Positions 7,278 through 34,249 of a stretch of DNA of 39,974 nt are shown here, piece by piece. Each line of letters starts with the position of its first letter. Within the stretch, counting starts at the first letter, position 1. Location: the IMG/VR virus record IMGVR_UViG_3300030329_003574, positions 1 through 39,974 of that record; one strand, written 5' to 3'. The notes under the pieces were generated by a model, which was not told where the DNA came from, did no database searches, and was given only the letters and a program-made list of their open reading frames with translations. The position numbers and the translations under genes were made by a program. Origin of the DNA: a virus.

Positions 7278-8492
7278 TTATGCGTCGTTAGCTGCGTCGG
7301 TAGTGATAAATAGTTTAATACCTAGTAATCTACAATCTCCTGTATATGTGTCACTGCCGTCTGATGCGTTTCTGAAAACTTGAAAAAAAGTTAAATCGTC
7401 ATCAGCTGGAGTTCCTGCAATTGTAATTGCTCCACTTGCTGACGAAACTAATACATCTTCAACAGCTCCGCCACCAGCGTCTGTAACTTCAACTGCTGTT
7501 CCAAAAGCTATGTCTGCTGTATCATCGTTTGCAACTCCAACGCCTTGCAATCCTAAAATTACGTTTCCTGTATTTGTATTACTTGGAGACCACCAAAATT
7601 GAAAAGTCACTGTTCCTAAATTCCATGATTTAGGTAATGCTACAGCAAATTGTGCAAATTCATTTGTACCTGGATCAAAATCTAAAACTTTTAAATCTGG
7701 TCTAGTCGCTGTTGTTTCTACTTGTTGTGGGTCAGCACCGTTTGTTGTAGCGCCATACATAGCCGAAGCAGGCACCCATATAGTTTCTGTTCCTGCAATT
7801 TTTACTGCCTTTGTTCCTGATTTAAGAACACCTGTTCCTAATGGATTAATATTAATATCTACATTAGAGTCTGAAGATGATGTTGCAGAAACTGTTGGAC
7901 CATTTCCAGTTGCTGCATTTGCAAGAGTAAGTTCATTAATTGCTGATCCAGTAGCAGTTAATTTTAATAATTCGTTTCCACCAGTATCTAAAATTGAAGT
8001 TCCAATTGCAGGTGATGTTAAAGTTTTGTTTGTTAAAGTTTGAATTCCAGAAGTGTCAACCACTCCAACATCAAGAATATCAGGGTTGGTTACATCATTA
8101 GCTGTCGCGTAAAGTAATCTTGTACCTTTGTCTGTAGCTGCAAATGTAATAGTATCTCCTGAACCCGATGCATACTTAAATTGAACTGTAAAAGAACCTG
8201 ACGTTGAATTTCTTATGATGTACATTCTTTCAATGTCTAAAGGTATGGTAACAATTTGATTACCAGTTATTGTTCCTGTAAACTCAATCATGTTTTGTTG
8301 AGCAGTTCCGGTTGTGTTTCCGTCCACCACAGTTAAAGCTGTTGTTTGCGCTCCACCTGCGATTGATGTTTGATTAAATCCTCCAACTAATTGTTGTAAT
8401 AATGTTAAATTTGTATTTGTTTTATCGCCCCATGTTCCTGCATTTTCGCCAGTAACCTGAAGTTCAACTCCGAGTGATGTGTATGTCGACAT
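7278..8492 (-). CDS. Tail fibre / virion structural protein
   Basis: A 404-residue protein starting with SLGVELQVTGENAGTWGDKT, the GENAGTWGDKTN motif that many marine phages carry at the N-terminus of fibre-like proteins and that I take as the virion attachment domain. The middle has repetitive fibre sequence (TLTNKTLTSPAIGTSILDTG, ANAATGNGPTVSATSSSDSN), and the C-terminal 170 residues look like a compact beta-sandwich (VTFQFWWSPSNTNTGNVILG). Lies between two other fibre genes. It likely forms part of the host-recognition apparatus. Confidence 0.75.
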   Translation of the reverse strand: MSTYTSLGVELQVTGENAGTWGDKTNTNLTLLQQLVGGFNQTSIAGGAQTTALTVVDGNTTGTAQQNMIEFTGTITGNQIVTIPLDIERMYIIRNSTSGSFTVQFKYASGSGDTITFAATDKGTRLLYATANDVTNPDILDVGVVDTSGIQTLTNKTLTSPAIGTSILDTGGNELLKLTATGSAINELTLANAATGNGPTVSATSSSDSNVDININPLGTGVLKSGTKAVKIAGTETIWVPASAMYGATTNGADPQQVETTATRPDLKVLDFDPGTNEFAQFAVALPKSWNLGTVTFQFWWSPSNTNTGNVILGLQGVGVANDDTADIAFGTAVEVTDAGGGAVEDVLVSSASGAITIAGTPADDDLTFFQVFRNASDGSDTYTGDCRLLGIKLFITTDAANDA

Positions 8493-29948: not shown

Positions 29949-30194
29949 CTAACTACTTAATTTTTGTATTAAGTAATTAAATTTATTAACTATCTTTTGT
30001 TTAAAGTCGTCTATTAAAGGGTTGCCTTGATTCTCTAGTATTAACTTCTCAACTTCGCCCTCTAACATTTTGTACATAACTTCATAATTTAATTTACTGA
30101 CCGCGTCTGGGTTTAAATTAACATTTTTAGTTATGTTAGTGTTAGCCGAATGCTCGGCTAACACTTTGCTTATGTTCATTGGAACATTAGGCAT
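29949..30194 (-). CDS. Small protein of unknown function
   Basis: An 81-residue protein, MPNVPMNISKVLAEHSANTN at the start and a charged C-terminal helix (KQKIVNKFNYLIQKLSS). No domain recognised. Overlaps the next upstream gene by 8 bases, suggesting translational coupling. It lies in the accessory region preceding the terminase promoter; may be an early gene. Confidence 0.55.
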   Translation of the reverse strand: MPNVPMNISKVLAEHSANTNITKNVNLNPDAVSKLNYEVMYKMLEGEVEKLILENQGNPLIDDFKQKIVNKFNYLIQKLSS

Positions 30195-30513
30195 TATTAT
30201 CTCCTAATGCTTTGTACTCATTATATTCAATCTCACTTGTGAATTGATTGAATAAATCAGTATGTTTGATTTTGAAATTAGCAGTATCGAACTTTTTTCT
30301 TTTTCGATTTATTCGCTGTATTCCAAATATGTTATCTTCTTTATCTTTAGCAAAGATAACATTTACCTTTTTATCTTCGAATAGATTAACAACACTTTGT
30401 TTCATAGTGTCAACTTCTTTGGCTAATCTATTCTGTTTTAGTTTTAAGTTAGCATAAGCTACAACAAGTTTTTCCTCGTCTTGCTTTAATCTAACTTTTT
30501 TTGCTGTACTCAT
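30187..30513 (-). CDS. Helical basic protein of unknown function
   Basis: A 108-residue protein, with a Lys-rich coiled-coil start (MSTAKKVRLKQDEEKLVVAY) and a second half with FGIQRINRKRKKFDTANFKI. It might bind nucleic acid. A copy of the 22-bp promoter-like element lies 30 bases upstream (30544-30565), suggesting control in common with 31232 and 31651. Family unknown. Confidence 0.6.
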   Translation of the reverse strand: MSTAKKVRLKQDEEKLVVAYANLKLKQNRLAKEVDTMKQSVVNLFEDKKVNVIFAKDKEDNIFGIQRINRKRKKFDTANFKIKHTDLFNQFTSEIEYNEYKALGDNNA

Positions 30514-30543
30514 AGTTATTGCCTTTCATTATTGTTTAACTAT

Positions 30544-30565
30544 TCTCTTGTCTTATCAAATCCCA
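30544..30565 (-). promoter_or_regulatory. 22-bp conserved element, copy 3
   Basis: Minus-strand copy of the element TGGGATATGATAAGACAATA(GA), here with A to T and T to G changes (GGGATTTGATAAGACAAGAG). It stands 30 bases before the start at 30513. The TTTGAT core could be a -10, but the conserved flanks on both sides are more like a phage promoter or an operator. Other copies: 31255-31276 and 31663-31684. Confidence 0.6.
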
Positions 30566-30680
30566 CATTAATATCAATGTATTTGTGTCCATTTTGGGTC
30601 TGTTCATTTTAGGTTTTCCACAAACAAATGTGGAACTTTTTTAGAACCCCCTGTGAACTTGTAGCTTCTGGGCAACTTGT

Positions 30681-30728
30681 GTTGTGTATAAAACACAACG
30701 AGCCGAGCCGTCGCCAACGAGCGACGGC
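30681..30728. repeat. Two adjacent perfect hairpins in the 30514-30740 gap
   Basis: GTTGTGT-ATAAA-ACACAAC (30681-30699) and GCCGTCGC-CAACGA-GCGACGGC (30707-30728) are perfect 7- and 8-bp stems, the second entirely G/C apart from the loop. They lie past the stop of the gene at 30741. No U run follows on the minus strand. An A/T-rich dyad with a T run on the plus strand is at 30616-30642 but no plus-strand gene is present. The GC-rich stem contains the ACGAG motif of the island at 31753-33060. Confidence 0.6.
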
Positions 30729-30740
30729 GACGGCAAATCA

Positions 30741-31232
30741 TTACCAACTACAAGTGTATATCGGAACTTTTTTGTTTTTGATTTGTTCTTTACACCAAGC
30801 AATAAACTTCTTGTCTTGTGCCTTGTATTCTCTTACAGAACTTTCTTGGAATTGCTGACCCCAAAAAAATCCGTCCGAGCAGAAATTATCGTGATAGTTT
30901 TGTTTGAACGTTTCTTCCAACTCCCTCACGACCTTTTCCGTAATATAGACTTCATCTCCAGCATTAAAACCGAGATGACTTAATCCTACACCCATGGCTT
31001 CAAAAGGGTCTTCCGCCTTTTTCATTTTTTCAAAGCTTCGCTTTTCTCTCTTCTCTTGTTCGGCTTCGTTCTGTTCCCGCCACTTACGAGCAAAGAATGT
31101 TTGAAGTCTTGCGTGCTTACGCCAAACAAAAACGTGCTTGGCTTCCTCTTCTCTTTCTTTCTCATCATCAGAATAATATTTGTCCCAATTTATCTTTCTA
31201 CCCCGAAGATGAGCATATTGATCTAGTCCCAT
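30741..31232 (-). CDS. MGLDQY-family phage protein
   Basis: A 163-residue protein, MGLDQYAHLRGRKINWDKYY at the start, then WRKHARLQTFFARKW and a C-terminal WGQQFQESSVREYKAQDKKF. The MGLDQY.{5,}WRKH.RLQ pattern occurs in many phages; some entries call it phosphoglycerate kinase-like, which I doubt. Rich in charged residues. The 22-bp element is 22 bases upstream. Function unknown. Confidence 0.65.
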   Translation of the reverse strand: MGLDQYAHLRGRKINWDKYYSDDEKEREEEAKHVFVWRKHARLQTFFARKWREQNEAEQEKREKRSFEKMKKAEDPFEAMGVGLSHLGFNAGDEVYITEKVVRELEETFKQNYHDNFCSDGFFWGQQFQESSVREYKAQDKKFIAWCKEQIKNKKVPIYTCSW

Positions 31233-31254
31233 TTGCGTCTCCTTTTTTTATATT

Positions 31255-31276
31255 TCTATTGTCTTATCATATCCCA
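31255..31276 (-). promoter_or_regulatory. 22-bp conserved element, copy 1
   Basis: Identical to copy 2 over 22 bases (TGGGATATGATAAGACAATA plus GA on the minus strand). It lies 22 bases ahead of the ATG at 31232, with the SD AAGGAG between. TATGAT is one base from a -10 consensus but no consistent -35 is found, so a phage-specific polymerase or operator is possible. Confidence 0.7.
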
Positions 31277-31312
31277 AACCATTTGCAACAAGAAAAAACG
31301 AAGAATAATTGT

Positions 31313-31651
31313 CTACCGATTCTCTACTAATTTTTCACACTCCTCGAGAGTATAGTGATTACTTTTAAAGAATTTGTCCCTTTCAATATGTAGTCCAAAC
31401 GGAGGCACTTTTAAATTTTCAAGTTCATCCATTGAAATACTACCTAAATCCCAATCCGAAATTTTAGCCCCACCGAACGCGATATTGTTCGCGGGATTTA
31501 ATTCCGTCAGAAACCAAAACCCTCGTCCCGTAGGATTGAACAACTTTACAACGGCCTTGAAACTTTTTTGTCCCTGCGCCACCTCGTTCTCTTTAAAGTT
31601 TTTAATTAGTTTTTCTCTAATCTCTTTTGTAAGTAATAACATTTTTTTCAT
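31313..31651 (-). CDS. DUF2958 protein
   Basis: A 112-residue protein with KLFNPTGRGFWFLTELNPAN and FGGAKISDWDLGSISMDELE, then FGLHIERDKFF, the conserved K.F.P.....W..TE......FGL......E.G..S..EL......IERD pattern of DUF2958. These small proteins are found on plasmids and phages; the role is not known, with an antirestriction-type link only suggested for some. Element copy 2 sits 11 bases upstream. Confidence 0.75.
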   Translation of the reverse strand: MKKMLLLTKEIREKLIKNFKENEVAQGQKSFKAVVKLFNPTGRGFWFLTELNPANNIAFGGAKISDWDLGSISMDELENLKVPPFGLHIERDKFFKSNHYTLEECEKLVENR

Positions 31652-31662
31652 AAGTCTCCTTT

Positions 31663-31684
31663 TCTATTGTCTTATCATATCCCA
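31663..31684 (-). promoter_or_regulatory. 22-bp conserved element, copy 2
   Basis: Same bases as copy 1, 11 bases from the ATG at 31651, with AAGGAG inside the remaining gap. With three copies always on the coding strand just before a start, chance is unlikely. Confidence 0.7.
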
Positions 31685-31752
31685 TACTAAAATCAAACGA
31701 AAAAATTCGTAGGATTACAGGAGGTTCTTGCCTCGTGGCGCAAGTCATAGCA

Positions 31753-31874
31753 TAGAATTATTTTAAACTAGTTCCAATCAGAACGACACGAGACGGCATT
31801 GTCCTGCCGGGGGGCACAAAGCTAGTTTAGAATGATTCTAAACTGGTTGTAATAAGAACGACACGAGACGGCAT
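31753..31874. repeat. 47-bp direct repeat pair, 75-base period
   Basis: Bases 31753-31799 and 31828-31874 align without gaps with six mismatches of 47. Both end in AGAACGACACGAGACGGCAT, which is identical. The second copy starts in an 17-base palindrome (31826-31842), the first copy has a decayed version. Nothing codes here: the 31685-31873 stretch has no supported gene. Forms the left edge of the GC-rich island. Confidence 0.8.
31824..31844. promoter_or_regulatory. Perfect dyad operator-like palindrome
   Basis: AGTTTAGAAT-G-ATTCTAAACT gives 10-bp arms around one base. Its core TTTAGAATGATTCTAAA fits, as I remember it, the consensus of the Irr iron-control element (TTTRGAAYNRTTCYAAA) used by alphaproteobacteria. 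It lies in the left repeat pair, 170 bases before the DUF2958 gene and just beyond the membrane peptide gene. Regulator identity is inference. Confidence 0.5.
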
Positions 31875-31978
31875 CAGAAGGGCATGCCCCGCTGCAGGAG
31901 CCACCAGCATGCCAGTAGGATCAGCAGCAGGCCTCCCGAGAACGAGGGCATAAGAAACAGGACGATGGCGATGAACAT
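31874..31978 (-). CDS. 34-residue hydrophobic membrane peptide in GC-rich DNA
   Basis: ATG at 31978 follows the stop of the upstream gene by 8 bases. The product MFIAIVLFLMPSFSGGLLLI continues LLACWWLLQRGMPF, a hydrophobic hairpin or single helix with almost no charge. Local GC is about 58 percent (70 of 120 bases, hand-counted), unlike neighbours. Ribosome-site match is weak (AAGGTAG). The stop ends at the left repeat. May be a toxin-like or membrane-acting peptide; the role is unknown. Confidence 0.5.
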   Translation of the reverse strand: MFIAIVLFLMPSFSGGLLLILLACWWLLQRGMPF

Positions 31979-31986
31979 AATCAACG

Positions 31987-32166
31987 TCACGCTACCTTCT
32001 TTCCCACTAGTATTCTTACTCCCTGCTTTTTCCAGGGCTCGGCCAGCAGTGCCAGCTCAGCACGCAATGTATGGAGCTGCTCAGTTGTAATATTAGCGAC
32101 GGTTACCGGGATCTTGGCCTTCTTGATTCTCTTTGGTTTATAGCTATAGCTTTTTGTAAATGGCAT
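31987..32166 (-). CDS. 59-residue basic protein behind the tandem RNA leader
   Basis: Start ATG at 32166 follows AAAGGAGGATAAG, a full ribosome site; an in-frame ATG upstream at 32202 lacks one. The product starts MPFTKSYSYKPKRIKKAKIP, then VTVANITTEQLHTLRAELAL and ends VRILVGKKVA. The middle helix and Lys/Arg ends suggest nucleic-acid binding. GC is well above the phage average. It is the first gene below the 344-base structured leader and its promoter, so it is probably controlled through that RNA. No family recognised. Confidence 0.7.
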   Translation of the reverse strand: MPFTKSYSYKPKRIKKAKIPVTVANITTEQLHTLRAELALLAEPWKKQGVRILVGKKVA

Positions 32167-32196
32167 CTTATCCTCCTTTAATTTACCTTTCATCAG

Positions 32197-32224
32197 GGGC
32201 ACCGTACCGCTAGGTCCGGTGCCC
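32197..32224 (-). promoter_or_regulatory. Hairpin just before the ribosome site of 32166
   Basis: On the minus strand GGGCACCG and CGGTGCCC pair over 8 bp; past one mismatch, three further pairs (ACC/GGT) close a TAGC loop. It ends 58 bases before the start codon. With no U tract it is not a standard terminator and could instead control access of ribosomes. Confidence 0.7.
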
Positions 32225-32568
32225 GTTTAGTCAGTTGTTAAGGCTCGTATACCAGGAGCCGTAGTCAAGCAAAGTGCATCGCGCTTCAAAGCTTTAAGGG
32301 TATGACCCGTCTCTACTTGACCCCAGACCCGAAGTGAATTGTACCATCGAGGTTTATCGGTGATCAACCGACCTCTAGGCACGCATGCCATCGGATCAGG
32401 ACTCAAGTTTGGCCAAGTTTACGGAATGCTATCACCACGTTTAAGGCAAATCTTGGCAGAGCCGCTTAACTTGACCCCAGAACCAAGTATACCTACCAGC
32501 TAGCAGTCGGTCGGTTTAACAAGATACTAGCGATCTCTCACCGCTTGGTTCAGGGCTCAAGCTTTCTT
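32225..32568 (-). ncRNA. Tandem structured RNA, two 154-base units
   Basis: Between the promoter at 32575-32604 and the gene at 32166 no gene fits. Unit A closes by CUUGAGCCCUGAACCAAG (32544-32561) with CUUGGUUCUGGGGUCAAG (32470-32487), 16 of 18 pairs. Unit B closes by CUUGAGUCCUGAUCCGA (32391-32407) with UCGGGUCUGGGGUCAAG (32316-32332), 15 of 17. Both 5' and 3' arms repeat at exactly 154 bases. Each stem has the same G-G and U-U mismatches at positions 6 and 10. Position 16 changes A-U to G-C and position 13 A-U to U-G, while position 7 changes C-G to U-G; the wobbles exist only in minus-strand RNA. Inside unit B are GGCA/UGCC (32376-32387 area) and GAGGU/ACCUC hairpins; unit A has AGUAU/AUACU. 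Other small stems follow (GGCTC/GAGCC, 32242-32260). It looks like a two-domain leader RNA; ligand or partner unknown. Confidence 0.7.
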
Positions 32569-32574
32569 ATGAAC

Positions 32575-32604
32575 GTTATATAAGACCAGATGGGAGGATG
32601 TCAA
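32575..32604 (-). promoter_or_regulatory. Sigma70 promoter of the structured leader
   Basis: The minus strand has a perfect TTGACA (32599-32604), then 18 bases and TATAAC (32575-32580; alternatively TATATA at 16). Transcription would begin near 32568 and enter the tandem RNA immediately. Its orientation agrees with the strand bias of the RNA covariation. Confidence 0.7.
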
Positions 32605-32698
32605 GAACTATTTTTATAATTTTTTCCATCACACCCAAAGCTCCAGCTCACTAGAAGTTCCTGTGCCCCCGCTCACCGCTCAGTCCGCGGGGATGCTG

Positions 32699-32850
32699 TT
32701 GTAGTTCTTATCCGAGAAACGTGATTTATGAAAACGACAAACGAGCTTCGGCACCACCAGTTCCGCCGGTGACTGAGCTCCTAGCACAGCCTCCGCGGGG
32801 CGATTGTAGTTCTTGTACGAGAAACGAGATTTATGAAAACGACAAACGAG
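32699..32850. repeat. 47-bp direct repeats, 105-base period, GC-rich
   Basis: Bases 32699-32745 and 32804-32850 agree in 44 of 47 positions. Each is preceded by TCCGCGGGG (3-base gap difference). Both end in GAAAACGACAAACGAG. A weaker third version, GAGAAACGAGGTTTCAGTAA followed by ACGAGG, is at 33016-33041 inside the nuclease gene. The stretch 32605-32851 has no convincing gene; the plus-strand frame through the repeats reads them twice and is likely chance. Confidence 0.8.
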
Positions 32851-33650: not shown

Positions 33651-33765
33651 TTACTTCTCCAACCATAGTCTTTATGTCAGGGTTATGCACCTCATTAAAT
33701 AAAGTTATAAATGATGACCAATTATAACTTTTGAGATATTTCTTTTGTCTCTGGCTTAACTTCAA
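33625..33765 (-). CDS. Possible 46-residue gene with TTG start
   Basis: A frame open across the 71-base space between terminase small subunit stop (33722) and the start at 33650. It encodes SYNWSSFITLFNEVHNPDIK and TMVGEVNVKATKKK. Codons look natural, but no ATG serves and TTG at 33765 has no clear ribosome site; the first third lies over the terminase gene. Gene packing suggests something is here; real only if a start exists. Confidence 0.35.
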   Translation of the reverse strand: MKLSQRQKKYLKSYNWSSFITLFNEVHNPDIKTMVGEVNVKATKKK

Positions 33766-34249
33766 TCGTTTTGGCGTTGAAGCCGTCGATCTTGTTTGAA
33801 AGCTCTTTGAGTTTCTTTTCAAGCTCTGCACGTGACATACCCTCCAATCCTGATACTCTAACTTCTTTCTTATCAATATATAGACCAGCTAATTGTCCTG
33901 ACCTGTATTCTGCATTTACAGCTGCTGAGTATTGTTTATTCTCTGCTGCCAAGTCAGCATATCTTTCTAATCTTCTATATCTTCTAATTTTATTTCTCTC
34001 GTATTTAGAGGATGCCTCATCTAATTTTTTATCTAAGTATTTACAAATGTGTGGATTTAATTTTCTATTGGTTAATCTGCTTGCTATTACAGAGTAATCA
34101 TTATCGTTCTTACATTCATATTTTGCTTTTCTCAAAGCATCTGATTTAGTAATCTCACCCCAGTTTGCAACTAATATATCAACAAACATCTTTTGTTTTA
34201 TAGTTAAGTCCTTATCAGTTCTTAATTCTTTCTTTTTAAGGCCAGGCAT
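33722..34249 (-). CDS. Terminase small subunit-like protein
   Basis: A 175-residue protein. The N-terminal LTIKQKMFVDILVANWGEIT followed by KSDALRKAKYECKND and NPHICKYLDKKL matches the small terminase pattern LT.KQ..FV......G..T..AL..A.Y, with helix-turn-helix DNA recognition. The C-terminal half is coiled coil and suits oligomer formation. It should pick the packaging site. It lies 4 kb upstream of the large subunit, with the GC-rich island between them. Confidence 0.7.
   Translation of the reverse strand: MPGLKKKELRTDKDLTIKQKMFVDILVANWGEITKSDALRKAKYECKNDNDYSVIASRLTNRKLNPHICKYLDKKLDEASSKYERNKIRRYRRLERYADLAAENKQYSAAVNAEYRSGQLAGLYIDKKEVRVSGLEGMSRAELEKKLKELSNKIDGFNAKTIEVKPETKEISQKL

Follow-up and report, generated by a model that had tools for sequence, protein, structure and literature searches.

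A 22-bp element that stands three times in front of small accessory genes of a phage raises the question of what reads it: an RNA polymerase of the phage, the RNA polymerase of the host, a regulator, or the translation machinery. The window analyzed here is the whole stretch of 39,974 bases making up the virus record, which is a fragment of a phage genome because its end falls inside a DNA polymerase gene. The explanation that we prefer, with a probability of about 0.77, is that each copy would be a promoter for host RNA polymerase with its primary (sigma-70) factor and that three one- or two-gene units beside the terminase would be read separately.

Genomic context and relatives of the phage

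The minus strand of the window carries the large genes scanned, among them those for terminase, portal, capsid, and structural proteins. The window terminase shares 70.6% identity with that of Pelagibacter phage HTVC023P and 60 to 64% with those of HTVC027P, 023Pt_psg01, and DSL-LC04, and the window phage presumably has a SAR11 host. All three elements lie in an accessory region between the genes of the terminase small subunit (33722-34249, weak matches) and large subunit. No tRNAs were found in the window, and an Rfam scan of it gave no match. About 1.1 kb at 31700-32850 is without clear genes and likewise without Rfam or tRNA matches; it contains a direct repeat of 52 nt (31748-31799 and 31823-31874, 85%) and another of 47 nt (32699-32745 and 32804-32850, 94%). 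A perfect 12-pair hairpin at 30138-30165 (AGTGTTAGCCGA...TCGGCTAACACT) lies inside the start of the gene at 29949-30194, and a similar palindrome is seen in the relative locus L047.

The three copies and their genes

The copies occupy positions 30544-30565, 31255-31276, and 31663-31684, all on the minus strand, which is the coding strand, and end 30, 22, and 11 bases before the ATG codons at 30513, 31232, and 31651, exactly as the first-pass annotation had described them. Two of them are identical, as it also stated: copies 2 and 3 agree over the 23-mer GGGATATGATAAGACAATAGAAA, from which copy 1 deviates at 3 of the 23 positions. A search of the window that tolerated three mismatches in the 23 bases returned only these three sites (30542-30564, 31253-31275, and 31661-31683, minus strand), and 100 dinucleotide shuffles of the window gave no match at the same threshold.

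Copy 1 (TGGGATTTGATAAGACAAGAGA) is accompanied by a -35 hexamer, TTGATA (30572..30577), 16 nt before the -10 hexamer TAAGAC (30550..30555), which is preceded by TGA. Its predicted start, near 30543, was placed from this geometry and from the leaders of relatives. The gene that follows (30187..30513) encodes 108 amino acids beginning MSTAKK, with a weak match to phrog_6244, and overlaps the next gene (29949-30194). Copy 2 (TGGGATATGATAAGACAATAGA) has TTGCAA at 31283..31288, TAAGAC at 31261..31266, and a predicted start near 31254, and it precedes a gene for 163 amino acids beginning MGLDQYAHLR (30741..31232). Copy 3, with the same sequence as copy 2, has TTGATT at 31691..31696, TAAGAC at 31669..31674, and a predicted start near 31662. 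Its predicted leader of about 11 nt contains AGGAG, and its gene (31313..31651) encodes a DUF2958 protein of 112 amino acids (PF11171; E value, 3.2e-19). All of these features and genes are on the minus strand.

Recurrence of the element in relatives

Contexts of the element were collected from an IMG/VR pattern scan (20 contigs), a terminase search (80 relative loci), and one further scan, which listed 80 of 119 stretches. At least 174 distinct contexts fell within two core mismatches, a selection that inflates core conservation, and a later count reached at least 178. Motif counts exclude L001, L027, L028, and L105 to L138 (duplicates, controls, and chance genome hits), the 178-context count excludes L254 to L256, L241 is excluded from the leader counts and from the 178-context count as well, and L227 was merged with L049 on the basis of a shared key. 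A same-strand start codon with a ribosome site follows within 320 nt in 177 of the 178 contexts, and the remaining one meets the contig end. The start codon lies 13 to 45 nt downstream of the element in 145 of 178 contexts. Among 4,000 random positions used as a control, 30% had a start within 320 nt and 3.9% had one at 13 to 45 nt.

The recurrence was also followed by gene, with loci that were terminase anchored, plus the window, so that the motif played no part in their choice. The strict element is present in all 23 distinct regions upstream of MGLDQ homologs. Upstream of MSTAKK homologs, the element or a relaxed form was found in 25 of 31 distinct regions (15 strict, 4 core only, and 6 relaxed), and 3 of the 6 regions without it still show TTG...TGATAAGAC by eye. 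The genes downstream of the element belong to several unrelated families. Good copies number only one to three per element-bearing record, and the core is absent from the complete genomes of HTVC023P, HTVC027P, 023Pt_psg01, and DSL-LC04. A genome scan for the exact form TTG-N9-TGGGATWTGATAAGAY gave 18 scattered, chance-like hits in the collection searched, none of them SAR11 named, so that this spelling is not evidently widespread among host promoters.

Geometry of a probable sigma-70-type promoter

The first-pass annotation saw no consistent -35, but each of the three copies, read on the minus strand, has TTG at a distance of exactly 10 nt before GGGAT. In relatives, 64 of 71 distinct contexts whose loci had not been selected for TTG have it at the same offset (-13 from the core), as do 40 of 47 contexts from the terminase-anchored loci alone, while TTG at other offsets occurs in 0 to 9 contexts. 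The hexamer most often found at -35 is TTGACT. Read as a sigma-70 promoter, the element is TTGACT-N16-TAAGAC with an extended -10 TG at -15/-14, and its N16 spacer falls within the 16 to 18 bp that separate TTG from the -10 in such promoters. T at -12 and A at -11 are present in all 174 contexts, which were selected by core. Position -7 mostly lacks the usual T, being C in 122, T in 39, and G in 13 of the 174 contexts, and a plain sigma-70 scan misses the promoter because the scan accepts only -10 hexamers ending in T. The alternative -10 TATGAT was rejected, since its second-base A is T (TTTGAT) in 73 of the 174 contexts.

By the standard of Escherichia coli, TAAGAC would be a poor -10, and C at -7 would be odd. 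Myers et al. (2021; PMC8407463) examined four alphaproteobacteria and report -7T to be lacking from more than 60% of the sigma-70 -10 elements; by their account, -7T is no defining feature of alphaproteobacterial sigma-70 promoters, C at -7 is common in them, and the start usually lies 6 bp from the -10. C in place of T at -7 would thus fit an alphaproteobacterial (SAR11-type) host. Such promoters resemble the element in the TTG of the -35, in a -10 that does without T at position -7, and in a start, for the element a predicted one, some 6 bp past the -10. The element differs from them in its spacer of 16 rather than 17 bp, its nearly constant extended -10, its fixed spacer sequence TGGGAT, and its near identity between unrelated genes.

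Under the preferred reading, the contacts of host RNA polymerase would be TTG (-34 to -32) and the extended -10 TWTGATAAGAC (-17 to -7), and initiation 6 to 7 nt after the -10 would yield leaders of about 30, 22, and 11 nt. Promoter activity would depend on TTG and TGATAAGA, and TGGGAT at -22 to -17 would provide an extra contact, either as a basal spacer element or for a regulator. The sequence comparisons support a promoter family that is conserved among HTVC023P-type pelagiphages and would be of host-type design.

Which polymerase reads the element

The size and conserved flanks of the copies had first been likened to promoters of phage RNA polymerases. The promoter half of that proposal is supported by the fixed -35/-10 geometry, the strand, the position upstream of unrelated genes, and the structured leaders described below; the phage polymerase half is not, given the bacterial -35 and the lack of a polymerase match. 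PF00940 matched none of 20 phage records (the window, the 4 complete relatives, and 15 other virus records), a set in which several records are fragments and G011 (the record of L197) and possibly others may not be close relatives; the positive controls T7 and N4 matched. Like the promoters of T7 and SP6, the element is short, repeated, and nonpalindromic and stands on the coding strand before genes. It is also fixed in sequence and ends at the predicted start, and its AATAGA is presumably comparable to the end of the SP6 promoter. However, it differs from those promoters in its constant bacterial -35, the lack of a detected polymerase of this kind, and its scarcity, with 0 to 3 copies within two mismatches per record and no genome-wide set. 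A promoter for a single-subunit phage RNA polymerase is therefore very improbable.

A phage sigma factor was not detected either, as PF04545 (Sigma70_r4) gave nothing over the cutoff in 13 records; on T7 it gave one subthreshold hit of 12.2 bits. In HTVC023P, gp23 and gp27 have homologs in element-bearing families: gp23 is homologous to a gene of L139 (E value, 1e-36), and gp27 is homologous to a gene of L216 (1e-12) and weakly to the window MSTAKK protein. Upstream of gp23 and gp27, TTGACA-N16-TATATT and TTGACA-N16-CATAAT, respectively, were recognized by eye. Since neither PF00940 nor Sigma70_r4 was matched and the HTVC023P homologs have near-consensus sigma-70 promoters, host RNA polymerase with sigma-70 would be the simplest reader. 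An alternative host sigma factor, such as RpoH, would account for a long fixed sequence with C at -7 and for the absence of the exact sequence among SAR11-named records. This alternative is unlikely in view of the combination of TTG, extended -10 TG, and TA--A, which is sigma-70 geometry, and of the near-consensus promoters of the HTVC023P homologs.

No description of promoters was found in the literature for HTVC023P-type phages, and the word "promoter" is absent from the main text of PMC12753301 and PMC9599517. The former reports high expression of HTVC027P gp33 and gp34 at 6 to 9 h after infection. These genes occupy the same genomic region, but no homology links them to genes of the window, and they give regional context only. 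Upstream of gp34, gp36, and gp38 of HTVC027P (L024), another repeated promoter-like form, TTGACA-N17-TAGGAT, was seen by eye, as were TAGGATAATCCTA-type palindromes at gp36 and gp38.

Leaders and the predicted start of transcription

The leader between the element and the gene is at least 48 nt long in 32 of 177 contexts (21 families). In 13 of 19 leader families, the longest RNA stem begins 4 to 6 nt after TAAGAY, compared with 1.85 expected from shuffles, and in the other 6 it begins elsewhere; the test used 19 family representatives and excluded L197, whose 276-nt leader is unlike the others. A leader containing TTATCAGGTTGACA occurs in seven distinct forms, all seven at 10 to 11 nt after the hexamer (measured to the search motif). 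The genes behind it, an MDEKLI gene as well as MGLD genes, are unrelated. The fold proposed for this leader has 161 of 161 cells paired, with three pairs changed on both sides; these double changes are confined to two of the seven sequences and thus represent few independent events. Because wholly different leaders begin at the same place, the RNA would start at the predicted site, and transcription is likely to begin about 6 to 7 nt after the -10.

The 5' leaders between element and gene comprise about 20 structured modules, unrelated to one another and roughly 50 to 220 nt long, that extend from the predicted first base (L031, L049, L059, L100, L151, L152, L178, L204, L234, L242, and others). 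L053 seems to join the module of L049 to that of L234 in tandem, and in L242 two others seem to be combined likewise; tandem reuse of the scanned module is represented by L234 and the visually matching L053, and the scan returned a single contig. Rfam gave no match on eight leader-bearing loci.

The leaders also bear on the idea that the element acts in the mRNA or in translation, as might be suspected from its closeness to start codons in most copies. A likeness exists to the start-associated sequences (SAS) of cluster K mycobacteriophages, which are short, asymmetric, phage-specific repeats found before many gene families, mostly in one orientation, and according to PMC3203893, SAS (GGGATAGGAGCCC) overlaps the ribosome site 3 to 7 bp from the start codon. 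In contrast, the element lies at the predicted promoter, 13 to 45 nt from the start codon in 145 of 178 contexts and up to 221 nt away, and stays there as the leader lengthens. In long-leader relatives it keeps its place with respect to the leader stem even though 69 to 221 nt separate it from the start codon, and the upstream TTG is constant, which makes a role in translation hardly credible.

The spacer motif and a possible operator

The strictness of the spacer TGGGAT exceeds what sigma-70 alone should require, and a basal spacer contact and an operator appear equally possible as its explanation. The first-pass annotation had named a common operator as its second option, and in that version the promoter would be of the same host type, and a phage or host regulator would in addition bind TGGGATATGATAAGA and switch the genes as a set. 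We regard this extension as tentative. TGGGAT is as fixed as the -10 in the 174 core-selected contexts, and the element precedes several unrelated gene families. Distant forms (L061, L063, L070, L090, and L101) have AAGAT at this place and so contain TAAGAT-N4-TAAGA, a direct repeat with a 10-bp period that could be a two-protomer site. In addition, ATGGGATAT is found near the HTVC023P gp10/gp11 and gp23 promoters at other spacings, possibly by chance. Against an operator, neither PHROGs nor Pfam assigned a regulator family to any of the 10 small or unknown proteins searched from one near-complete relative, and L049, L052, and L053 retain TTG and TGATAAGAC but have GAGAC in place of GGGAT.

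At 7895-7972 of HTVC023P (L022), the divergent genes gp10 and gp11 have CATGGGATATTAA in common, which also occurs before gp23 and could be an operator. Middle promoters of phage T4 that depend on MotA combine a -10 with a fixed upstream motif read by a phage factor. The element resembles them in pairing a -10 with such a motif, whereas it keeps a canonical -35 and has no known phage activator.

Implications for HTVC023P-type pelagiphages

The preferred reading, a host RNA polymerase/sigma-70 promoter, would offer a direct handle on these phages in the form of a defined promoter whose start point is predicted, and the leader modules are candidate structured RNAs. A broader proposal, which we consider doubtful, is that the element is a nearly invariant promoter-plus-operator through which host polymerase and a putative phage regulator would control a small accessory regulon, and that it also launches interchangeable leader RNAs from their first base as swappable parts. 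If this is true, promoter, RNA module, and gene would be swapped as separate parts, with modules single or apparently tandem in many members of the family.
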